From NCBI RefSeq assembly GCF_964019625.1, contig NZ_OZ026458.1:806001-870000 (forward strand): a stretch of 64,000 nt of DNA, given 5' to 3'. The notes below the pieces were generated by a model. The model made no database searches. It saw nothing but the letters and a program-made list of their open reading frames with translations, and was not told the DNA's origin. This document shows, piece after piece, positions 30,776 to 59,650 of this stretch (position 1 is its first letter; every line of letters starts with the position of its first letter). A program made the translations under genes and the position numbers. This DNA is from Spiroplasma endosymbiont of Diplazon laetatorius. GTDB lineage: Bacteria; Bacillota_I; Bacilli_A; Mycoplasmatales; Mycoplasmataceae.

Positions 30776-30804
30776 TTGGAATAATGTCAAAACAATTATA
30801 TAAT
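30776..30804 (+). promoter_or_regulatory. Promoter of the DegV cluster
   Basis: TTGGAA (30776-30781) and TATAAT (30799-30804) with a 17-base spacer, 30 bases before the first DegV start. Confidence 0.7.
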
Positions 30805-30834
30805 ATAATAAGTCTTTTATATAGAGGAGGAATT

Positions 30835-31686
30835 ATGAAAATTGCAATTTTAATTGACTCTTCTTGTGGAGTTAAGGATGTAAGTAAATATAAAGATTTA
30901 CACCTTGTTCCATTGATGATTACCAAAGAAGATGGACAGCAAATAGCTGATGATGAAAATTTAAGTATGGATGAGTTTTATAAATTAAACGATTCACAAT
31001 TATTAAAAACATCACAGTCTATCCCTGGTAATGTTATGGGTAAATGAGATGAATTATTGAAAGAATATGATGAAGTTGTTTGTTTACTAATTTCAAAAGG
31101 TCTTTCAGGACAATATAATACATTTAAGATGTTTTCCCAAGAAGATGAATATAAAGATAAAATACATGTAATTGACACAAACGGTGTAAGTATCGTTATT
31201 AAACGTCAATTAGAATTAGTTGAAAAACTAATTGAAGAAGGTAAAAACGGTCAAGAGATCACACAGATAGTAGAAGAACACTATAACAAAACAACTGGTT
31301 ATATTATTCCAAAATCACTTGATCAATTAGTTCGTGGTGGAAGAATTAGTAAAGCTGCTGCAGGACTTGCAAAAATATTGAAAATAACTCCAATATTAAA
31401 ATATAACGGAGAAATCGATAAGCAAGATAAAACAAGAACATTTAAGAAGGCTGTAGAAACAGCACTTGGATTATTAAAAACTGAGTACTCAAAGAACGAT
31501 ATCGTAGACATCGCTTATTCAAGAACAGATAAAGAAACTCTTGAAATGGTTAAGGAAATAGTTGATCTTGCAGGATTGAAAATAGGTTTATTAGAAGAAA
31601 TGCCAAATACAATTACTTGTCATACAGGTAGAGAGACTTTTGCATTTATGCCTAACCAAATTTGAGGAGAAAAATTATGAAAATAG
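30835..31686 (+). CDS. DegV family fatty-acid-binding protein, copy 1
   Basis: Encodes 283 residues from an ATG with a GAGGAGG site. DegV/FakB features: the N-terminal IAILIDSSCG strand, the ligand-binding KTSQSIPG, LSGQYNT, the DQLVRGGRISKAAAG loop and the C-terminal CHTGRETFAF. FakB-type proteins carry fatty acids to the kinase FakA; no fakA lies in the window. The true stop is a TAG reached after two TGA (Trp) codons and lies 10 bp inside copy 2. The middle of the gene is nearly identical to copy 2. Confidence 0.9.
31273..31415 (+). repeat. 143-bp identical tract, DegV copy 1
   Basis: Identical base for base to 32115-32257 in copy 2, while the flanks have diverged. It starts GAAGAACACTAT and ends GGAGAAAT. 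Confidence 0.9.
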
Positions 31687-32528
31687 CTGTAATCACCGAT
31701 TCGTCAAGTGGTGTTAATAGTTTAGAAGGTTTTAAGGACCTTTACTTAGTACCATTGATGATTACTACTGATGATGGGCAGCAAATAGCTGACGATCAAA
31801 ACTTAGTTGCTGATGAATTTTATAAATTAAATGATTCACAATTATTAAAAACATCACAATCTATTCCAGGTGTGATGATGACAAAATGAGATGAGTTATT
31901 AAAAGAATACGATGAAGTTATTTGTCTATTACTTTCAAAAGGACTTTCAGGTCAGTACAATACATTTAGAATGTTTTCACAAGAAGATGAATATAAAGGT
32001 AAAGTACATGTTGTTGATACAAACAGTGTAAGTATCATTTTAAAGCGTCAACTAGAATTAACAGTAAAATTGATTAATGAAGGTAAAACTGGTCAAGAAA
32101 TAAAAGATATATTGGAAGAACACTATAACAAAACAACTGGTTATATTATTCCAAAATCACTTGATCAATTAGTTCGTGGTGGAAGAATTAGTAAAGCTGC
32201 TGCAGGACTTGCAAAAATATTGAAAATAACTCCAATATTAAAATATAACGGAGAAATAGACAAACAAGGTAAGACAAGAACTTTTAAAAAAGCTGTAGAA
32301 GAAGCACTTCTACTTTTAAAAGAAAATTATCCAAATAGTAATATCGTAGATATTGCTTATTCAAGAGCAGATAAAGATACTCTTGAACTTGTAAAAGAAG
32401 TAATTAAGGATTGTGGTTATGAAATCGGTTTATGAGATGAATTGCCAAATACAATTACTTGTCATACAGGTAGAGAAACATTTGCTTTAATGCCTTACCA
32501 AACTTGAGGGGAAAAATTATGAAAATAG
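31677..32528 (+). CDS. DegV family fatty-acid-binding protein, copy 2
   Basis: Encodes 283 residues, the same length as copy 1, with a TGAGGAGAAA ribosome site inside the end of copy 1. It keeps DSSSGV, KTSQSIPG, LSGQYNT, the RGGRISKAAAG loop and CHTGRETFAL. Its most divergent parts from copy 1 are the first 60 residues and the region after residue 195. Overlapping starts and stops show that copies 1-3 are translated in series. It ends at a TAG 10 bp inside copy 3. Confidence 0.9.
32115..32257 (+). repeat. 143-bp identical tract, DegV copy 2
   Basis: Second member of the pair with 31273-31415. A shorter part (around VRGGRISKAAAGLAK) is also shared with copy 3. Confidence 0.9.
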
Positions 32529-33346
32529 CAATAATAACTGATTCAGCAAGTGGTGTTCCAAACATTAATGAAGTAAAAGACTTATATTTAGTACCATTAA
32601 TGATAACTAAAGAAGACGGAACTCAAATAGCTGATGACGAATTGTTCAAACCAGATTCATTTTATGAATTAAATGACTCACAACTATTAAAAACATCACA
32701 ATCTATTCCAGGAACAATGATGACAAAATGAGATGAGTTATTAAAAGAATATGATCAAATAGTATGTATTTTAATTTCAAAAGGACTTTCAGGTCAATAC
32801 AATACTTGTAAAATGCTTGCCCAAGAAGATGAGTATAAAGGTAAAGTATTTGTTGCAGACACTAACGGTGTAAGTACAGTTTTAAGAACTCAAGTTGAGA
32901 TAGCTTTAAAATTAGCTAATGAAGGTAAAAACGGTCAAGAGATTGAAGATGAAATAAATAAATCAAATGATAAATTTAGTTTATTTATTATTCCTAAAGC
33001 TTTAGATCATTTGGTTCGTGGTGGAAGAATTAGTAAAGCTGCTGCAGGACTTGCAAAGTTCTTAAAAATAACTCCAATACTAAAATATGATGGAAAAATT
33101 GATAAACACGGAAAAGAAAGAACTTTTAAAAAAGCTATAGAAGAAGTAGTTAGAATTTTAAAAGAGTTCGGTGATGATCAATTTGTTGATGTATCTTACT
33201 CAAGAATCGACGAAGAATATTTAGATATAGTAAAAACAGCAATTGAAAAAGCTGGATTAAAAGTAAGACTTTATGATGAAATGCCAAATACTATAACTTG
33301 TCATACAGGTAGAGAAACATTAGCATTAGCTGCATGAAAAAAATAA
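32519..33346 (+). CDS. DegV family fatty-acid-binding protein, copy 3
   Basis: Encodes 275 residues and is more diverged than copies 1 and 2. Ligand-site residues are kept (KTSQSIPG, LSGQYNT, HLVRGGRISKAAAG, CHTGRETLAL). The loop before the RGGRIS segment is different (NKSNDKFSLFIIPKALD), which could change the preferred acyl chain. The start has a TGAGGGGA site within copy 2. The stop TAA is followed 12 bp later by copy 4. Confidence 0.9.
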
Positions 33347-33358
33347 GGAGAAATGTAT

Positions 33359-34219
33359 ATGAAAATAGGAATATTAGTAGATAGTTCAACTGGTTTTATT
33401 GAAAAAGAACATAATACTAAACTAGTAAGAGTAATACCACTTCATTTAATTGTTAATGATAAAGATGATTATTTAGACACACCTGAAGTTGTTAAGGAAA
33501 AAGAATTAATGAAAATACTTGCTGGAGGAAGTAAAACAACTACAAGTCAGGCCTCTCCAGGAGAATTAATGAATAAGTATGATGAAATGTTAAAAGAATT
33601 TGATCATATTATTCATATGACAATTCCAGCAAACCTTTCTGGAATGCACCAAACAGCTATAATGATTGCAAATGATGATGACTACAAAGGAAAAGTTACT
33701 ATAATAAAAAACTTTTTGGCAGCAAACTGTGCACAATTATTGGCACTTAAATTTGCCCAAATGGTTGAAGAAGGAATTGAAGATCCAAAAGCTTTCCAAG
33801 CAGAATCAGATGAATGATCAAAAAATTCATTTACCGCTATTGTACCAAGTGATTTACAAAAAATGTCTAAGGGTGGAAGAGCAAACTCACTATTAATAAC
33901 TATGTTAAAAATGATGAAAACTAAAGTTGCTATCCAATGATTAGAAAAACCTAAAAAAATTGGTATGGGAAGAACATATGGAGCTGTTTTAGATAAAATG
34001 ATAGCAGCACTAAAAAAAGATATAAAAGATGAATTTGAACTACTTTTTGTTCATTTACCAGAAGCTAACAAAATACACATGGATCAAATAAAAAACTACT
34101 TAAAAGATAATAATTTAGAATATAAAGAAGAATTAGTGCCAAATGTTTATCCTTGACATGCAGGGATTGATACAATGGCTCTTATAGCAATTAAAAAATC
34201 TTTAATAGCAAAAAAATAA
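33359..34219 (+). CDS. DegV family fatty-acid-binding protein, copy 4 (divergent)
   Basis: Encodes 286 residues. The ATG at 33359 is 8 bases after AAGGAG; an ATG at 33353 is too close. It is the most divergent copy: TTSQASPG replaces KTSQSIPG, LSGMHQT replaces LSGQYNT, and SKGGRANSLLITM replaces the RGGRISKAAAG loop. The conserved DSSTG start and WHAGIDTMA end show it is still a DegV protein. It probably binds a different lipid or has a separate partner. A strong terminator follows. Confidence 0.88.
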
Positions 34220-34248: not shown

Positions 34249-34324
34249 TGGCAAGGATAGCAGGACTTGAACCCACGACACTCGGATTTGGAGTCCGATG
34301 TTCTACCAACTGAACTATATCCCT
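34249..34324 (-). tRNA. tRNA-Trp (anticodon CCA)
   Basis: A 76-base cloverleaf with encoded CCA. The anticodon loop is CTCCAAA, reading UGG. The acceptor stem AGGGATA/TATCCTT has a G-U pair. It lies directly after the T run of a terminator that follows tRNA-Trp(UCA), so expression depends on readthrough or on an unseen promoter. Confidence 0.96.
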
Positions 34325-34327
34325 AAT

Positions 34328-34350
34328 AAAAAAATACCCTTTCGGGTATT
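34328..34350 (-). terminator. Terminator between the two tRNA-Trp genes
   Basis: On the minus strand AATACCC-GAAA-GGGTATT followed by seven T. It is located between tRNA-Trp(UCA) and tRNA-Trp(CCA). Confidence 0.85.
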
Positions 34351-34362
34351 GATATTTCTTAT

Positions 34363-34438
34363 TGGCAGGGGTAGCAGGACTTGAACCCACGACACTCGGA
34401 TTTGAAGTCCGATGTTCTACCAACTGAACTATACCCCT
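34363..34438 (-). tRNA. tRNA-Trp (anticodon UCA)
   Basis: A 76-base cloverleaf with encoded CCA. The anticodon loop CTTCAAA gives UCA, which reads UGA (and UGG by wobble) as tryptophan. It differs from the neighbouring CCA tRNA at only a few positions, so the two arose by duplication. It proves genetic code 4 for this genome. Confidence 0.97.
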
Positions 34439-37043: not shown

Positions 37044-37071
37044 AAAAAAAATACAACTAAATGTTGTATTT
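37044..37071 (-). terminator. Terminator of the E2-like gene
   Basis: AAATACAAC / GTTGTATTT stem with a 5-base loop and eight T on the minus strand. Confidence 0.85.
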
Positions 37072-39911
37072 TAAGACACTGTAAGAATTTCAGGTTTTTC
37101 AAGAATAGATTTAACCCTTGCAAGGAATTGTCCTGCTTCTGCTGCATCTATTGTTCTTTGATCAACTGTTAAACTCATATTCATAATTGCTTTTATTGCA
37201 AGTTTTTCATTATCCACAACCACTGGCTTTTTAACAATCTTACCAACTCCAATTACAGCTGCGTTTGGATAGAAAATTGTTGGAGTTGCTTGAATTGCTC
37301 CTATATTACCATAGTTAGCAATTGTTATAGTGCTTCCCTCTGATTCATAATCATAAAGTTCTCCAGATCTAAGTCTTGTAGTTACTTCTTTTATATCTAT
37401 TGCAACCTCTTTAATTGATAACTTTTCTACAAATTTTAGTACAGGTATAATTAAACCTTCGCTTGTTTCAGTTGCTAAACCAATATTGTGGTATTTTTTA
37501 ATAACCACTTCATTTGTTTCTGCATCATAACTTGAATTTAATTTAGGATAATCCTCTAAAGCTATAGAAATAGATTTTGCTATAAATGATATAGTTGTAA
37601 ATTTAATATGACTTTGTGTTTGTTTTAACATGTGTTTTAATTTTAAAATTGAACTCATATCAATTTCAGTAGAAATAGTTAAAGGAGGTACAAAGTTTTG
37701 ACTTAAAATCATTGATTTAACAGCTGGATTTCTGTTTTCATTAATTTTTTCTCTTTCAATAACTTTATGTACATCATTAGATTCGAATTGTAAGTATCCA
37801 ACTGAATTATCTGGTTTATCTTGTTCAAAGTTAACATCTTTGATGTTTTCTTTTTCTCTTTCTAATCTTTCTAATTCAAGTTTTTCTCTTATATCTTTTT
37901 CAACTCTTTCAATAATTTCTTGCTCTAATCTAGCTCTTTCTTCTTCTTGACGTTGTTTTTCTTTTAATTCGTTTGCAAATGCATTAATTTCTTCTTTGAT
38001 AATTGATTTTAAATCGTTTGCATTAACTTCTTTGTTTGGTTCTTTCTTTTGATTCATACTTTGCATCATGTTTTGCATTAACATGTATTGCATCATTTGT
38101 CCAAATGTATCAGTTCCAGCGTTGAAGTTAGATTGTTGATTTAACTTAGAAGTTGCAGCGTTTAATTGGTTTTGCTCTTTTAAAGTTTTTTGTAATTCTT
38201 TTATTTGATCTTTTAAGAAATCCACAGTTTCATCAGCAGTTTTTTTATCTGATGCTTTTGCAAGTTCACTATCTTTTTTACTAATTTCAGTTTTAATTTC
38301 TTTTTGAACAACTTTTGGAGTTTTAACCAATAATGAATCGTGAGCAATTTCTTCTAATTCATCTGCGGGAGCGCTCATACCAAGTTCTGTTGTTCTTTCA
38401 ATATACTCTGCTTCATCTTTATAAGCAGTATATAAGTTTGTAGCTCTTAATCAGTTTTCAAATTCTTGTTTACCTTTTGGAGTTTCGTTGTAAGGCATAA
38501 ACACCATAGCCCCTGTTGAAGGATCTTGTTGAGGAACTTCTCTTAAAAATTCTTTTGGTATACCAATTTCTTTAACTTTTTTACTGTATTGAAGATTTTC
38601 TTGTTTCAATCCTCTTTCAACAGCTTCTCTTCTTTGGTTTATAACACTTCTTTCATCTCTACTTTTCATGATATCTCATCTTCTTGAAGTGTCATATAGA
38701 TTTGAAAGTTTTGATTCAGCATAAGTTTTACTTGATTTATGACCAATTTCTTCCATAAGTTCTTTTGGTTTCTTTTTAGGCATAACAACACCACCATATG
38801 GGTTTAAATCATTTGCATCAATTGTTGTTGCTTCTTCATCATCTACATAAGAACCATATGAAACACCAAATTGACCATCTTCACTGGCCCCTTGTCTCAT
38901 AAATGTATCATCTGATTTTACTTCAAGATTTTTTTGTTTCATTCTTTCAACCTCTTGTGCTTTTTGAATTGGATCAACAACTTCTTTAGGTCTCTGGCTA
39001 TCAAGAATTGCATTGTCTTTTGTAGCTACAATATCTCTTTCAAGAACACTTGGATCTCCACCGGCTTTATTTAACTTCTCAATTCTTGCTTGAATTATGT
39101 TTCTCATAATTAAAGGACGACCTTTTTCGTCAGTTTTTGACATTGCATTAATTTCTTCATCAGCTTCCTGTACTTCTTTAAAGTCATTTTCTTCTAAAAG
39201 TTTTTCTTTTCTTGCTTGAACAAGTTGTCTAAACTTACTTACACCAGCTGTGTTATTTGTAGAAAATAGATTACCTCCATCTTCTGCTTTAACATCTTCA
39301 TTTGTCATTTTAAGTAACTCTTCTTTTGTTAAGTCACCCATTATTTTATTTTGAGGGGCATTCTTAATTGAGTCTCTAATATTTGCTCTCATCTGAGCAA
39401 ATCTGTCTTTGGGTTGTTCATTTGCTTGACTCATATCATTATCCCTCTCTTCTAATTTTTTGACTTTCTCTGGAGAATCCATTATATCGTCTCTTCCAGT
39501 AGAAAAAGGAGTTATTGCTTGATTATATCTGTCATACATTACAGCACCAGAAAATAAATCAGCATCAGTTTCGACAGGTTTTAAATTAGGTTCATGTTCT
39601 CCATCACCTATAAATACTTCTTCTTCAGGTATATGTTGGACATCACCTTTTTTGTAATGTCTACTTTTAAATTTTTGAATCTCTTTATCTCCAACAGCTA
39701 TGTTTGCTAAAATACTTCCATTTTTAACAGCACTGTTTAAATGAATAGTTTTGGTAACAACACCATTGTAGTTAGATTTTATATTTACTTTGGTTCCATC
39801 ATCAAGTTCTATAAGAGCAAAATCCTGTCCGAAGGTAATTTCTTCTCCAGAGAATAATCACTCTTTTAAAATTCCTTTTGATGGTAAATTTCTAGCCCTT
39901 AAATGTACCAT
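37071..39911 (-). CDS. Large E2 acyltransferase-like protein, catalytic residues lost
   Basis: One frame encodes 946 residues. Residues 1-75 look like a lipoyl domain (KGILKEWLFSGEEI, then YNGVVTKTIHLNSAVKNG), but the lipoyl-lysine turn reads ELDDGTKV, without Lys at the usual Asp-Lys-Ala place. Residues 125-700 are charged, partly coiled coil, with a Met/Gln-rich patch (MMQYMLMQNMMQSMNQ, about 606-621). Residues 723-946 match the trimer-forming catalytic domain of 2-oxo acid dehydrogenase E2, but the DHRxxDG motif reads DQRTIDA, so catalytic His is Gln918. It is probably a scaffold rather than an enzyme. Genuine pdh genes are not nearby. Confidence 0.8.
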
Positions 39912-40076: not shown

Positions 40077-41348
40077 TTAATTTGTATATTTAGGATTAAA
40101 GATAAGAACACCTTTTTTAACAAGTTTCTTATATCTTTCAGCTTCTCTAATGTTATCTCTAACAAACGGTCTGTCTTTATAGTTAAGAGATAATATAAAT
40201 CTTTTGATTTTTTCTTTATTAGACTTATAAATAACTTTTTCTTGTTTTACCGCTGCTTTTTTAAGTTTCTCTTCAAGAATTCTAGCCTTGATATATTTTT
40301 TTCTCTTAGAAATTCTTTCAGATCTTTCTAAAGATTTAATACTTTTTAAGAATATTTTAAATTCAACTTTTTTGTGTAAAACTTCCATCTTTTGTTCGTT
40401 TTTAAAAGTAATTTTTTTCAATTTAGCTTTTTGTTTACGATAGTCATGTTCTTCTTTTGTAATAAGTTTACCTTCGATATCATGTCATCTGTAAAATTTA
40501 CCATTATTTCAATTTAAATAAAAGTATTGTAAATTAACTACAAGGAATGTAATTGCTAAACAAGATAGTATGAAAATACTTATTAGTAATCATTCAGGCC
40601 CCATGCTGCGACTTACACTAGTATAGTTATTATCGCTTCCATATCCAAGATCGAATTGATGAATGTTTAAAAATCAATAAGGATATCACATTTGTTGAGT
40701 GTAATATTTTGTTTGATCTATAACACCATTATCTAAACTTCATATATTTTTTCAGAATCATTCAGATTCAGGACTATTACTATATATTTTATTAAAAAAC
40801 TCTGGTGAAAAGTATTTAAATCTTATTTCTCCCCTAATCATTGCAAATATTAAATATCCAGCTGGGTATCCACAAGTTAATGGCAATGAGAATTTTGAGT
40901 ATCTTCTTGGTGCGTGATAATGATCACCACAAGAAAGAAGGAAATAACCAATCATAATACTTGGTATACACATATGTAAAACAACAGTAGAGACTCAGTT
41001 AGATGGATAATATGCATTTATTTCATCTGGTGAAGCCAAAAGACCAAATCAGAAAACCATCATTGTAACAGTAATATAAACTGTCATGGCCAATTCAATA
41101 CCAAACACTGGTTTAGTGTTATAAATTCTTCTCATAAATAGAGCAACTATTAAGTAAATAACTACTGCATAGTTAGATTGGGTAGTAAAGAAAGCATAGT
41201 ATATATTTAATCTTTCCATTGCAGGTATACCTTCCAAGTTTTTCTTAGGAGCGTATATTTGCAAGGCAAAATCGAATGCTAAAAAGGCAATTAAAATAAT
41301 TAAAACCATTACTTTTAAAGAAAATTCAAAGTCTTTATTTAATTTCAT
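40077..41348 (-). CDS. DUF1600/Pr6Pr-type multi-pass membrane protein
   Basis: Encodes 423 residues. About seven hydrophobic segments lie in the first 290 residues, with RLNIYYAFFTTQSNYAVVIYL, the conserved aromatic/Gln-Ser-Asn pattern of Pr6Pr and mollicute DUF1600 proteins, and His-rich loops (CGDHYHAPRR, WFLNIHQFD). The last 125 residues are very basic and cytoplasmic (KRKKYIKARILEEKLKKAA). Function unknown. The start has a GGGTGAT site. It is transcribed alone. Confidence 0.7.
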
Positions 41349-48087: not shown

Positions 48088-51000
48088 CTATCCTCCTTGA
48101 ACAGCTAGTAGCATACTAACTTTTTTAAGTGATATTCAACTTAATGTATTACTTACTGTATATAACAGTCAAGTTCCTAAAATACCAGGAACTATATATC
48201 AAATTTTAAACACTAATGGTAATACCATTATTGGAGTTGCTAAGTGTATTCCAAGCATAATTATTGCTCAAGCTAATGCAACACCAATTATAGAACTTAT
48301 TATTGCTACAGGAACATATATACCTATAAATAATTTACTTATATATGATTCTTTGTAACCAAGTATCTTCATTACTGCAATTATTTTTGCATTTTCTGAT
48401 ATAACCAAGTTAATTGTTAATAATATAATTATTGCACTTAAGAAAATGGTTACAAAAACTACAAAGTATATTATCAAGTTGGCAGTTGTGTTGATTCTTG
48501 TCATAACTTTTAAAGCTTCTTCAATTTGCATTGCTTTGTTAATAGAGCTATTTGAATATCCAGGATATGAAGTTGTTGTGTCACTTCCTCCGTTTAAACC
48601 AATCATAGAATAATCTCCATATTTTTGGTTTGTTGAAACCCCTTTTGAAATATCTGTAAACGATTCATCAAACGAGCTTTTATAATTGAATAAAGGATAT
48701 TCAGACTCAAATAAGGTCATGTATATTTCATTTCCTTCTTCTTTTGTTCAATTTTCAAAATTAGCAAATAATTCTTTATTACTTAAACTTGATTTACTGT
48801 TTAAATTATTTAAGTAACTTTTTAGTTTTTGAATTTCTTTTTCTGATGAATTAGGATTTGATCATTCTTTCATAAATAATCTAAATAAAAGTTCTTTAGA
48901 TTCATTATATTTAGAAATCTCTTCTGCTAAATCATTATTTATTCAAGCTTTATTATCACCATATTGATTTACCACTCCTGCAACTGTATATTCAAAATCT
49001 ACAGTTGAATTAGTTGTAGCTACATCACCTTTTGCGATGGCTTTTGACATTTCTGTTGCACCAACCAAACTAGAACTAGTTATATCAATTTTTGATTTAT
49101 AAACTCTATTATCTTCGTTTGGATTTATTTTTGAGTTTTTTCAACCATTTCCATTATCTTTCATCATTGAAGATGAATAGAAGTTTGATGCACTAGTGTA
49201 GTCATCTTTTTCATTTTTAGCACTTAGCCCATTAGTATCTCAAGTTTTAATATTTAAAGGTTCATTTCCATAAGAAAGTTCGTTAATTATGTGTGTCATA
49301 TTAACTTTATCTCCAGGTTTTAGATTTAATCTTTTTGCAAGAGATTGATTTATTAAAATTAAATTTTCTGATTCAAATAAATTATTTTTAAGATCTTTCC
49401 CTTTAGAATCTTTAACAATTTGTGTTTTGTTATCTTCTTTTATTCCATAAATTTTTAGACTTTGATCATTTGTGTATGCATTTAAGAAAATTCCAATATC
49501 TTCTTTTTCTTTATTATATGGAATTAAGCCAAAAGTAGTATTAAAATTACCATCTTCTTTTTGATATTCTCTTTCTATAATTGTTTTTATCATAGAAGGA
49601 GATTGACTATAAATTCCTTGTAAAAAGGCTTGTTGAAGGTTATTGAACATAAATGCCATAATTCAGTTATAAATAGGAACCATGACAGTAACTCTTGATT
49701 GAGTTCAATCTTCGTTTTCATCTCTATATTCATATAAAGATTTTTCCATTGGTTCATCACCATTTATTTTCCCAGAGTTAGCAATTCTAACTGTAGGAGG
49801 ACTATAACCAGAACCCGGAACAAAAACTTTTCTAAAATCTTCATGAGATATCATTGGTTTTCCATCCTTAACAGAACCACCAGTAATACTCAAAGTGTTT
49901 TTATTGTTAGGTAAGTAGTAACCTTCTCTAGCTATGGCATCTTGGATACCGACACTATCTCTGTATTTTAAGTAAAATTGTCTTAATTTTTCTAACTCAT
50001 CTATATATTCGTTTGATTTAGAATTACTAGAAATTACACTAAGCATTTGTTGTTTATTTCAATATTTATCTAGACCATAGTTTTTTAAATCAGGTCATAA
50101 ATTAAAAATCACTGTTTTATAGTAATTATTTTTTGTTGGTATATCATTAATTTCACCTAAATCTAAATATAAATCTTTATTTTTAAGATAATTCATATCT
50201 ATTGATTTGTATGTCATATCATTTAAAGCACCAACATCAGTAGAAGGATTATATATTTTTTGAGAAACATTGTTTTGTAAATACATGTTTCAAATATTTG
50301 TAGCAGAATCATTTATATCCAATTTATCTACGTCACTATAAGGATTATAAGTTTTATAAAAACTTGTTGGTGAATTGTAAATTGGACTTTGATATTCTAT
50401 TTGATTGTTATAACCTTCTTTGATATATGTAGATTTTTTATTATCTGCAAGAACACTAGGCATTATAGCACCTATTGAAATAAGTGTTGAAGAAACAAGC
50501 ATTACAGAGAAAACAGAAACCAGTTTTAAGATAGAACCAGATAATATAGCCCCTCTGAAACGATTATTAAATTTTTTACTTCTAGCTAAAATGCTTTTAA
50601 CAGCTAATTTGAACTTGTTTGTAGAACTTCTACTTTCGAAGTTGATCATTTGTAACGGTGTGAATTTATTAAACATATAGAAGTATGTTATCAATGTAAT
50701 TATTTCTAAAAGAATAAACATACCAAATATTGTAATTAACATTGATTCTCAAGATATCTCAAAAGCTTTCAATTTAAAAGAGAAAAAGTTTGAGAAAATT
50801 GAAATTACCATTTCTTGCATAACCATTCCTAAAATGTAACCAGCAAAACCACCAATTACAGATATAAACAATGGATATAAACCATTTGATCATATTAACT
50901 GAGATTTTTTATATCCAAGAGATAATAAAACTCCTGATTGACCAAATGATTTTTTAATTTGGTTATTTAGCATTATAACTAACATTACAATACCAATAAT

Positions 51001-52215
51001 TATTGTAACCAACATAACTATATAACTAAATAATTTATAACCTTTTATTGTTGAACCAAGCATAGTTGTTCTTGCATAAAAAGGATATCTTGCATCCCCT
51101 CTTTGCAAGGCAATAGGAACACTTTTATTCAAAGTATTTTCATAACCTGCATATAGGGAAATCTCTCCAGCTTTTTCTAAATTAGTTAAATATTCATTTA
51201 TCATTTCTGTAGAGTTTTTGATATTTTGTCTAGATTTAAACTTGGCAACAAATGAAACTTCCTTATCAAGACTAGATGTTGAAGATATTACTTCATTATT
51301 TTTAAGTTCACTGTCTGTATATCAAATCTTTTGCGTCTCTGGATTATCTATTTTGAAAATATTTTCTGGATAAATACTTTCATAATAAACATTTTTAAGA
51401 CCAAGGTTAGAAGGATCAATGTAAATTAATCCTTCTTGTTTTGTATTTGGTAGTGGTTTTGTTTCATCAATTACTGGAGTTGAAAAATCAGCAGTTGAAC
51501 CAAAACCAACAACTTGAAATCATTGTTTTGAAGAATATTTTGTATTTCCAATTCATGAGTTTATATCTATATTTTTATATAATGATAGGTCGACTTTTTT
51601 AGTCTCACTATCTTCAACACGAATTGAACCACCATATTCATCATCTTTAATCCTAATGATATCATTTATTTTAATATTATTAGCTTTTGCAAATTCTTCA
51701 TTAACATAAACTCATTTTTTTGTATTTATGTTTGTGGCTTGTGTGTATTGTTTTCATAATTCGATACTCATACCTTTATTAACAACAAATTTATCTACTT
51801 TTTGATCTGGATTTAAAGCAAAAACTTTTAAAGTTTTTTCACTTGATAAATTTGATATACGAGATTCTACTCTATCAAAATCAAATGCTAAATCTGTATC
51901 AAATAATTTATTTTGTAAATATGTTATTACCATATTGTCTCTAACATCAGAATCAGATATATTTTTACTAAATAAATCTTTTTCAAAGTCTTTGACATAT
52001 GAGGATTTTGATAAATCAATTATGAAATCATGGATGTTACTATTTTTTTCAGAAATAAAATTTTCATACGACTTTTCTATTCTACTTGTTGAAGAATAGG
52101 AAAGTGTAAAAACAAAAGAAGTTAAAAACACTAGAACAATTATAGTGATTAATTGTATTTTATTTCTTAATAAGTTTTTAAATGCATTTTTAAAAAATGG
52201 CTTTTGGTTTTTCAT
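48088..52215 (-). CDS. Giant FtsX/MacB-type ABC permease, 1375 residues (copy 1)
   Basis: A single frame runs through many TGA(Trp) codons. An N-terminal helix (about 18-40) is followed by a large extracellular region. FtsX-type four-helix units follow: MLVTIIIGIVMLVIML with SFGQSGVLLSLGYKKSQL in the middle, and VTIFLSAIIILLTINL with IAVMKILGYKESYISKLF at the C-terminus. The repeated LGYKxS loop is the ATPase-coupling helix of FtsX permeases. No ATPase gene is next to it. It is paralogous to the gene at 55175-59650 (for example SFYKTYNP in both). Function may be lipoprotein or lipid export. Confidence 0.82.
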
Positions 52216-55174: not shown

Positions 55175-58100
55175 CTATTTATCTTTTAAAGCTTCAAGTG
55201 GGTTAATTTTTTGAATGTTTGATCATCCAATACCAAATGTTACTCCATAAATTGCTGCAATAACACCAAATACGGCAAATGGTAATCATATTGTAAATTG
55301 AACAGGTAATACTCAAGCTGTATTTATAGCCATGTAATTAGCAATAAATACAAATGTAGTTCAACCTATTATAAATCCAATAACATACATAATTAATATA
55401 GGCATTATGTACATTCCTAGAATTTGTTTTACAACATAAGGATTTGAATATCCTAAAGTTTTCATTGTTGCAATAAATTGTTTGTTTTCATAAATAATTA
55501 AGCTTGTTGTTAAAAGAATAATTGTTGCTGAAACAATAACTGCAATTACTATAAACATAATCATAATCATGTTTATTAAAGTTGTTATTTGTCCTAAAAT
55601 TTGTCTGGTTTGTTCTTTTGGGAGCATTGTAGAAAGAGCTCCAATACCATAACCTTCATTAAAGTTTTTTGGATCTATTGTCATACATTTTTGATCTTCG
55701 ACTTCTTCATAAGCAGAGTTTTCATTTTCCTCTTTAGGAGGACATTCAGTTTCTATCATATGGTAGTTTCCATTTAAACCAACAGAACTAAAATCGGCAA
55801 ATCTTTGCGCAATTGACATTCCACTCTCTAAATCTTGCATAACTTTATCTCCAGTGTATTTATAATTAAATATTGGATATAAATTATTGTACAATTCGTT
55901 CATTTTTCTTCAGCTCGAGTTTTCCTTACTTCTTTCAACATTTGATTTGAAGTCTTCAAAACTTCTTTTACCGTTGTAAACTTCTGTAAAGAACTGTTCA
56001 AGGTTTGTTCCTTGTATAATTTCATCATTCTCACCAGAAAACATTTCCATTTTGTATATTGGGTTTCCTTCAGGATATTCTCTTGCAAATCAATTTTCAA
56101 AATTGTATTTTTGAGTTTTATCATAACCCAAAATTTCATTTGCTGATTCGTTATTTATTCAACCTTGGGGTTGTCCATAACCATCTTGAACTCCTACTAT
56201 TTCAAATTCTTTAGAAAACACATCTTTATTAATTACTAAATTTCCATTTTTGTATTTGTTGTATACATCAACTGTATTTGTAGCATCTTCTGCATACTTT
56301 GCAGATATATTAGATCCAGCAATTTGAGAAGAACCAACACCACCTAAGTTTGATGTAAATATTGCAGCTGAGTTATTAGAATAAAGACCGTCATTTGTAT
56401 AGTAACCATATGTAGACTGTGTTCGCATTTCTTTAAAATCAATATAATTGTCTTCTTTTGTGGGGTTTCCAACATTGTGACCATATTTAATTGTAGAATT
56501 GTTATCACTATTTACATTGTAATATTCCACTTTTTTTGAATCACTATATAGTAATTCTTGTAGCACTTCAAAACTAACTGTAGCACCAATATCTTTTCCT
56601 AATTTTTTTTGCATACTCTCATTTATTATAAGAGGCACTTTCCCATTTTCAGCTTTGTTTAAAAATAGATTTTCCTTAATATTTTTACCTTTAGAATCTC
56701 TTAGATCAACAAGAGATGAATCTCTATTAATACCATATATTTTAGCACTTTCTTTTTTATTATTTAAAGTATTAAAATTAACATTAAGTGATGTACCAAG
56801 TTCGTCCAATTTATTATCATAAGGAACTAGGTTAAAGGCTATGTTATAATTTTTATTTTTTTCTAAAGCTTGTTTCATTTTTTCTTGAACAAAATAAGAG
56901 GCTCTTGTATAAGTTGTTTGTAATATTGCCATACCCATTCTTCCATCCAATACAGCACCAAATCATAAAGTAAGTGCTGTATTTAGTTTTTTAATGTCAG
57001 CAGCTTCAAGTTTGTTTAGATAAGAATCATTTAAGTCTTGTGGATTTAATAAATCTGATTCGTTTTTTCATCGGAAACTTGTGTCTTCAATATTTATCTC
57101 CATATATTCTGAAGATTTTATTTTATTATCATTTATTCAATAATTACTTACACCTTTCTTTTTATCTGTAGGTTTTTTTGTAAATACTTCATTAAGATTT
57201 CCTATTGCTTTTTTGGCATTTATCTCACCGTCTTGTAAAGAATTATTATTAAAACTTAGTTTTAAACCACCAATATATTTGTTGTAAATTCTTAACATGA
57301 TTTTTGTGTATTTTAGAAGTTGTTGTTGTTCTAAATTATCACCCACCATTACTAGATTTGGTAAATCAGAAGCTGTTAATTGTGAATAATCAGGTCATTG
57401 GCCTTGCAATTGTGTTAAAGCGGTTGAAGATCCAATTCCTGAAACCGATGCTTGATCAAGGTTTAGCAATAATTTTGTAGACATATTTTTTCAATCCAAG
57501 TATGAAAACTCTGTTCAAAAAAACTTATCATTGTCAGCTATATCATATGAATAATAATACGGACTAATATCTCCGCCAACAATTTCACTAACAACCTTAT
57601 TTCAATCTATAGCTTCCGAAGCCTTTTTACCAGCAGCTTCTTCGATTAACGGGTAAGCAGTACGACCGTCAGTTCAACCACTAGCATTTCCAATAGATGG
57701 ACCGGTGTCTTTCCCACCATTCCTTATTTTTATTTTTTCTTTATACTCTCCTCAACCTTTATTTTCAGCATTTGGGTTGTATGTTTTGTAGAAAGACCAA
57801 GGATTATTTGCTATTGGTTGTGTATACTCAACCATGTTTTCATAATTCATACCATTAAATGTTGCTGTCATGTTGTCTGACATAACTTTCGGAGCAACCA
57901 CAGTGGTTGTTAAAAGCGTTGCACTAAGTAACATTGTTGCACTAACTCCGGCTAATTTTCCAAGAGAAGTTGTTAATAAAGCCACTCTTAATCTTGGGTT
58001 AAAACGTCTTTTAGCAGACAACGATTTAATCTTCATTGCAAATTTATTAATTACCTTATCATCTCCACCTTTTAATAAAGTTAGAGCTGATAATCTTATT

Positions 58101-59650
58101 TTTCAATAACCAATTGAATAAGCAAGTACAGTTAAAGCTAATCATAATCCTAAAATACTTGCACTAAAAGTAACAATATTAAATTTAAATCCCAGGAAAG
58201 CTATGTTGAAGTAATTTGAGAACATTCCAACAATTACTGTTTCTAAGAAAATCGAAAGTATATAACCAGCTAACGCTCCCGCTATAGAAACAATTAAAGG
58301 TATCGCAATGAAGTTATTTACAACTTCACGTTTTTTATAACCAAGTGATTTCAAACAACCAATTTGCCTACTTTGTAATTCCACTTGTTTTTTAGTTGTT
58401 AAAACTGTTGTAAAGCCTGCAATAACAATAATAACAATAATAAGACCTGTCGCCATAGCATTATAACCACTCATTATTGAACTAAAAGTTGTTATTCTTG
58501 TTGAAAATTTATAAGTTGAATCATCTCTATCATAAAAATATCTAATATCTCTTTTTACATTTATGTATGCTTTGTATTCTGAATTCAATTTGTCAATTTC
58601 GGATTTAGATCTACCTTCATTGCTTTTGATTGAGAAGTATGATTCTCTGTCATTCTCAGAAGAAACAACAACTTTTGCGTTTTGAACAGCATAAGTTGAA
58701 AGATATCTTGTTTTTAAAACACTTTCATCTCTTTTGTTTTTGAAATTATAACTTGCAGTGTTATAACCCATTCAAGTTGGGTCCATATACATTAATACTT
58801 CATTTTTAACATTCGGCATTACAGTTGTTTGGTCTAATAAAGGTGTTGTAAAGTCGGCTGATGTTCCAATCCCAACAACTTCGAATCAAACCATATTTTG
58901 GTAAGCCCCCATTGCAAGTACATCTTGAGCACTTTTTGTAGATATTGCATTATTTAAGTCCTTAATTTCTTGTGAACTACCTGTTGTATTTTTAACAAGT
59001 ACATCTTTACCATACTTATCAGCATTAATTCTAACAATATCTCCAATTTTAATTTTATTTTCTTTAGCAAAACTTTCTCCAATAACAACCTCTTTATAAT
59101 TACCTTGCTTGAAAGTTCTTCCTTTAGAAACAATTAATTTGTCAACACCATTTTGTTGACTTTCTGAATTCATTTTAGAAATTGCCTTTACTTTTATTGA
59201 CCCATTTTTACCCTCTAAACCAGATATTAATCTAGCTTCAGTAAAAGATGAACTAAAGTTGTACTTAAGACCCATTTGAGCAATAATATATTGTTGCAAT
59301 AACAATTTCTCATCAGTAATTTCACCATTACTTAAAATATATTCAGATAAATCCTCTCAATCAACTCTACCAGATTCTGGGTCTGTTTCCCCGCCATTTT
59401 CCTCATCTCTATTTTGAGAAGGTTTTGGCTGTTTAACTTGATTATTCATATCAACATCAACTACATAATCCCTTAAATTTGATGTTGTCATTAAACTTTC
59501 ATATGCTCCTTGAACTCTTGTTGTTGTTGCAGATAAAACTGATATAACTAAAGATACAAACATAACCAATAAAGATAAACCTATTATTTGAGATTTATTT
59601 TTACCAGCTGATCTAAAAGCGTTCTTAAGTAAAAGTCTAATTCCTTTCAT
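55175..59650 (-). CDS. Giant FtsX/MacB-type ABC permease, 1491 residues (copy 2)
   Basis: One open frame in code 4. The N-terminus has the MacB layout (KNAFRSAGKNKSQIIG, then a helix at about 20-42). Three FtsX segments have coupling loops: QIGCLKSLGYKKREVV, FIATMKTLGYSNPYVV, and the C-terminal INPLEALKDK. Large extracellular parts lie between them. Same paralogous marks as copy 1 (SADFTTPLLDQ, WSFYKTYNP, YPIFNYK). No ATPase nearby. The start has an AGGAGG site and a clear promoter with an internal palindrome upstream at 59745-59773. Confidence 0.82.

Follow-up and report, generated by a model that had tools for sequence, protein, structure and literature searches.

A catalytically dead E2 paralogue of Spiroplasma as a probable scaffold with a possible link to the MreB/fibril cytoskeleton

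We investigated a minus-strand gene in the 64,000-nucleotide window (the whole stretch of DNA analysed here) that encodes an E2 by fold and ancestry which nevertheless lacks the marks of the enzyme, namely the catalytic His, the Ser/Thr, the lipoyl-Lys and the E3-binding domain. The protein is very probably a catalytically dead scaffold working outside PDH, and its distribution across genomes makes a tie to the cytoskeleton of cell shape, polarity or motility plausible, at a likelihood just short of even. The whole reading that we favour, and to which we give an even chance, is that of a Spiroplasma-specific E2 pseudoenzyme acting as a multivalent scaffold, with MreB/fibril or a polar attachment as the likely partner. 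Searching the open-access literature, we found no paper discussing this protein, no localisation, interaction or genetic data on it, and no earlier account of a pseudo-E2 scaffold in the Spiroplasma context.

An E2 fold without the E2 active site

An earlier note on this DNA had described a single 946-residue frame with a lipoyl-like start, an E2-like end and a charged stretch between them, a description that held in each part. Under code 4, one frame encodes a lipoyl-fold domain, a linker of ~640 residues and an E2 acyltransferase domain, in this order. It is open solely with TGA read as Trp (W18, W412 and W487), and translation with table 11 splits it in pieces. The host genome comprises 979 kb in a single contig, and the named relatives of the gene, given below, make it that of a Spiroplasma, a corkscrew-shaped bacterium without a cell wall. 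A full-length AlphaFold model was poor (mean pLDDT 43.7) except for the N-terminal barrel and some helices. The domains and the positions of the former catalytic and lipoylated residues are as follows:

37071..39911, minus strand: E2-like pseudoenzyme, 946 aa (code 4; start ATG at 39911, stop 37071-37073)
39672..39911, minus strand: lipoyl/biotinyl-fold barrel without lipoyl-Lys, residues 1-80 (predicted model, structure alignment, Pfam in orthologues)
39798..39800, minus strand: Asp38 codon, at the lipoyl-Lys column (Lys in 14 of 14 canonical E2s)
37083..37757, minus strand: E2 acyltransferase-fold domain, residues 719-943, without the catalytic residues
37317..37319, minus strand: Ala865 codon, at the catalytic Ser558 position (A. 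vinelandii numbering; E2-fold alignment)
37158..37160, minus strand: Gln918 codon, at the catalytic His610 position (A. vinelandii numbering; E2-fold alignment)

Residues 719-943 match the Pfam family 2-oxoacid_dh (PF00198, E=4e-63), and a model of this domain alone (pLDDT 71.5, pTM 0.74) superposed on E2 cores with Z of about 25-27 over 200-207 residues, a comparison that the earlier note had proposed. The DHRxxDG motif reads DQRTIDA, as that note had it, with His replaced by Gln918 and Gly by Ala923. The loss is shared by the whole family: at the catalytic His column, 36 of the 37 E2-like sequences carry Gln and one carries Arg, leaving none with the His that is present in 17 of 17 canonical E2s. 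At the Ser558 column, Ala is found in 31 of the 37 E2-like sequences, compared with Ser or Thr in all 17 canonical ones. Around the former active site, D917 and R919 are invariant among the E2-like orthologues and D922 is nearly so. This domain is thus a case of a fold preserved without its chemistry, not of decay.

The predicted N-terminal barrel (pLDDT about 80) aligned with solved lipoyl and BCCP domains at Z 10-11 over about 70-83 residues (VIA-align). Pfam gave no lipoyl-domain match in the 946-aa copy itself; among 27 orthologues scanned, Biotin_lipoyl was matched in 7 (best 1e-7). The loss of the lipoyl-Lys, also claimed in the earlier note, holds for this copy (Asp38) and for 32 of the 35 orthologues having the domain, but not for the remaining three (G030, G037 and G042, all of one genus), where Lys occupies the column. 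Versions of the protein from genus g11 have lost the lipoyl domain.

Linker motif, ancestry and selection

The linker, 36% of whose residues are charged and which is largely of low model confidence, contains three short helices sharing the pattern RxΦΦxxRxxxΦ (at residues 228, 270 and 421), followed by two further predicted helical segments:

39186..39239, minus strand: linker motif copy 1, residues 225-242, SKFRQLVQARKEKLLEEN
39060..39113, minus strand: linker motif copy 2, residues 267-284, LIMRNIIQARIEKLNKAG
38607..38660, minus strand: linker motif copy 3, residues 418-435, RDERSVINQRREAVERGL
38049..38108, minus strand: Met-rich predicted helix, residues 602-621, QMMQYMLMQNMMQ, kept in longer orthologues
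37845..38021, minus strand: predicted long helix or coiled coil, residues 631-689 (predicted model)

Most orthologue linkers have 2-4 matches to the pattern, compared with 0.01-0.08 in shuffled linkers, counts that are descriptive because the pattern was drawn up after the sequences had been viewed. Searching three genomes with a motif profile recovered, at E<0.1, just three copies in each, those of the E2-like gene, and none in any other protein. From the presence of three copies in one linker, we infer multivalent binding of one partner.

Each of the 20 genomes of the genus has an orthologue, as do several related genera; the named relatives are Spiroplasma phoeniceum, S. poulsonii and a Spiroplasma of Nebria riversi. 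A scan of genome contigs yielded only 5 real relatives; the Bacteroidales locus L112 was rejected as a normal DHR E2. When 37 E2-like domains were aligned with 18 other E2 domains, the E2-like sequences grouped as a single clade in the resulting tree (support 99/100), which makes the gene, by this sequence evidence, an ancient paralogue of the PDH E2 throughout Spiroplasma. The loss of the active site is common to the genus in that one clade, which rules out recent, lineage-specific damage. Likewise, a pseudogene or an artefact is ruled out by the single open frame in aligned orthologues and by dN/dS, which in the dead E2 domain of close species is 0.03-0.08, below that of the linker. Given these values, the dead domain must have been kept for something other than transacetylation. 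When distant genera of family f1 are compared with one another, the E2-like domain is in most cases better conserved than the active E2 (69% vs 44% between G000 and G030), but this is not so between f1 and f9.

In genus g8, we observed a second, separate long E2 paralogue (L093:1526-3391, minus strand, genome G045), a 621-aa protein with an acidic linker and without the catalytic His (YDESVIDI), whose lipoyl-like N-terminus has its Lys shifted by one residue. Similar long ORFs are present in other g8 genomes, and this paralogue may be an independent dead E2.

The earlier note would have given up its reading in a genome with no other E2, and here a normal pdhC is present elsewhere: the second E2 (439 aa, C1:901266-902585) has lipoyl, E3_binding and catalytic domains and lies in a run of ORFs that, judged by eye from their sequences, resemble E1, E3 and lipoate ligase and make up a PDH operon. 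The E2-like gene is therefore not the sole E2 of the genome. The E2-like protein, 34-35% identical to this canonical E2, shares with it and with the Geobacillus PDH E2 (1b5s/3duf) the order of lipoyl fold, linker and catalytic-fold domain. It differs from them in lacking the catalytic His, the Ser/Thr, the lipoyl-Lys and a detectable E3/E1-binding domain, in its long linker (about 640 residues), which bears a new repeated motif, and in the location of its gene outside the PDH operon. Together, the canonical E2, the family-wide loss of catalytic residues, the strong purifying selection, the retained fold and the lack of a detected E3/E1-binding domain support the central proposal of the earlier note, that an inactive enzyme has been retained in a structural role.

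Co-distribution with fibril and MreB

Screening 99 genomes, we found the E2-like gene in 44, comprising all 42 that bear fibril and two members of family f9 (G067 and G078) that carry MreB without fibril; in G014, the match is split over two frames. In the f1 genera g2, g3, g5 and g10, the canonical E2 is kept, and fibril, strong MreB and the E2-like gene were not found. Within f9, the gene is reduced to fragments in G083, broken by a stop in G088 and missing from G073, and these three genomes have no MreB beyond a 91-aa fragment in G088 and no intact canonical E2. In g11, where fibril is most diverged (34-44% identity), the E2-like protein is most diverged as well. There are exceptions, namely G068, which has one true MreB and no E2-like gene, and genomes of family f5, with divergent MreB-like genes and no E2-like gene. 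The distribution is phylogenetically confounded, given that the absence within f1 may reflect a single loss and that the f9 genomes without an intact copy also have no intact canonical E2; the two neighbouring genes do not show the fibril/MreB-like distribution of the E2-like gene.

These observations bear on the earlier suggestion of a cytoskeletal scaffold, which gains correlative support from the co-distribution with fibril and MreB but none from two published ribbon proteomes, where the protein is not listed. Fibril provides a precedent, being derived from a nucleosidase (PMC9710875): it is an enzyme-derived protein co-opted into the cytoskeleton, and its distribution is nearly identical to that of the E2-like gene. 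The E2-like protein differs from fibril in fold and origin, in not being reported from isolated ribbons and in its additional presence in fibril-less genomes that bear MreB.

Two further observations concern these cytoskeletal genes. The f5 genomes G063, G076, G081 and G090 (loci L114-L135) encode several MreB-like proteins of 386-397 aa (best E about 1e-60), with neither fibril nor the E2-like gene. In G015, the fibril gene (C1:424287-425812) is interrupted by a TAA, giving two overlapping matches, and, judged from sequence, is possibly a pseudogene, with MreB and the E2-like gene kept.

Possible roles and genomic surroundings

Characterised E2 cores are oligomeric; for E2 catalytic domains, the earlier note names trimers and 24- or 60-mers. 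By analogy of fold, the C-terminal core of the E2-like protein would oligomerise as a trimer, or perhaps a cubic particle, and display many flexible arms, on which the helical motifs and lipoyl-like heads could bind a repetitive partner. Going by the co-distribution, this partner would most likely be the MreB/fibril cytoskeleton or a polar (tip or "dumbbell") attachment, and the role would be one of anchoring or polarity rather than force.

Published work constrains this role. The protein is not listed among the gel-band identifications from the Triton-insoluble fraction of S. eriocheiris, where the largest protein is 85.8 kDa (Table 1 of PMC5289999), or among those from isolated ribbons (Table 2 of PMC9582952); limited as both lists are, this absence argues against a major ribbon subunit, and a low-copy polar role would be compatible with it. 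Kinking helices form in Mycoplasma with MreB5 alone (PMC9663586), so that neither helicity nor kinking requires the E2-like protein. In the same work, Mycoplasma reconstituted with MreB and fibril formed kinking helices without polarity, a dumbbell or efficient swimming, leading the authors to conclude that Spiroplasma components were still missing (PMC9663586). The E2-like gene is present and absent together with the swimming skeleton, and its product may therefore be a structural component so far missing from the account of that machine. It is a specific candidate, found in all fibril-bearing genomes searched and lost with motility genes, and its build combines multivalent arms with a core whose type is known to oligomerise. 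If this proved true, a second housekeeping enzyme, after fibril, would have been recruited into the Spiroplasma swimming machine. A placement specifically in a polar structure is unlikely, and we would put no greater trust in the more detailed picture in which the dead E2 oligomer is the core block of a polar (dumbbell/tip) anchor, its motif-bearing arms capturing MreB/fibril and giving polarity.

The strongest competing explanation, though a rather unlikely one, is a scaffold or hub serving another Spiroplasma-specific function, such as division, chromosome or membrane organisation or host interaction, that was lost alongside MreB and fibril while having no action on the cytoskeleton. The distribution alone fits such a hub as well as it fits a cytoskeletal part, and the ribbon proteomes without the protein (PMC5289999, PMC9582952) agree with it. 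On the other hand, the decay of the gene in f9 genomes without MreB and its retention in those with MreB, as well as the joint divergence with fibril in g11, favour the cytoskeletal reading.

Closest in logic is E3BP/protein X, exemplified by human PDHX, a subunit of E2 origin that has no catalytic activity and is maintained for its architectural role; PDHX has both a lipoyl and an E3-binding domain and works within PDH. A protein of this kind would co-assemble with the active E2 and adjust the architecture or partners of the PDH core. Such co-assembly of a dead E2 is known, human PDHX (6h60) is among both the sequence and the structure matches, and the C-terminal PExL end of the E2-like protein is similar to that of the active E2. 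Like PDHX, the E2-like protein has a dead E2 domain. It lacks the lipoyl-Lys, however, and the E3/E1-binding domain (PF02817) was not among the families found at E<=0.5 in the 27 E2-like orthologues scanned, though it was detected in the genome's own canonical E2. Moreover, about 57 kb separate the gene from the PDH operon, and it tracks fibril and MreB rather than PDH, since a canonical E2 is retained without it in g2, g3, g5 and g10. A role of the protein X type is accordingly improbable.

Slightly more improbable still is a sensor of CoA or acyl-CoA that would bind its ligand in the former active site, catalyse nothing and report metabolic state to cell behaviour such as taxis. The conserved D917, R919 and D922 would suit a binding site, and chemotaxis is seen in Spiroplasma despite its lack of two-component genes (PMC5289999), but conservation of the fold core by itself accounts for the retained residues. 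An acyltransferase persisting with altered chemistry is highly improbable, despite the retained E2/CAT fold and the Asp and Arg neighbours of the catalytic position, as hardly any orthologue retains either catalytic residue and 32 of 35 have no lipoyl-Lys.

The adjacent genes are unconvincing as partners of the proposed scaffold. Upstream lies an ORF for a predicted membrane protein of 423 aa (window 40077-41348, minus strand) with no Pfam match, which in much of g1, and also in g11, adjoins the E2-like gene; its family is widespread, with shorter relatives in many Mollicutes, including genomes without the E2-like gene. The downstream ORF of 420 aa is confined to g1, and synteny around the E2-like gene is lost in the Citri clade.

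Elsewhere in the window, a tRNA-Trp(CCA) gene lies beside one for a tRNA with anticodon UCA (34249-34438, minus strand), called SeC by ARAGORN and probably a UGA-decoding tRNA-Trp under code 4. Four tandem ORFs of 280-300 aa (30784-34219, plus strand) resemble, by eye, paralogues of the DegV family. Two very large minus-strand ORFs with many TGA codons encode proteins of 1375 aa (48088-52215) and 1491 aa (55175-59650), the former matching the FtsX permease domain twice.
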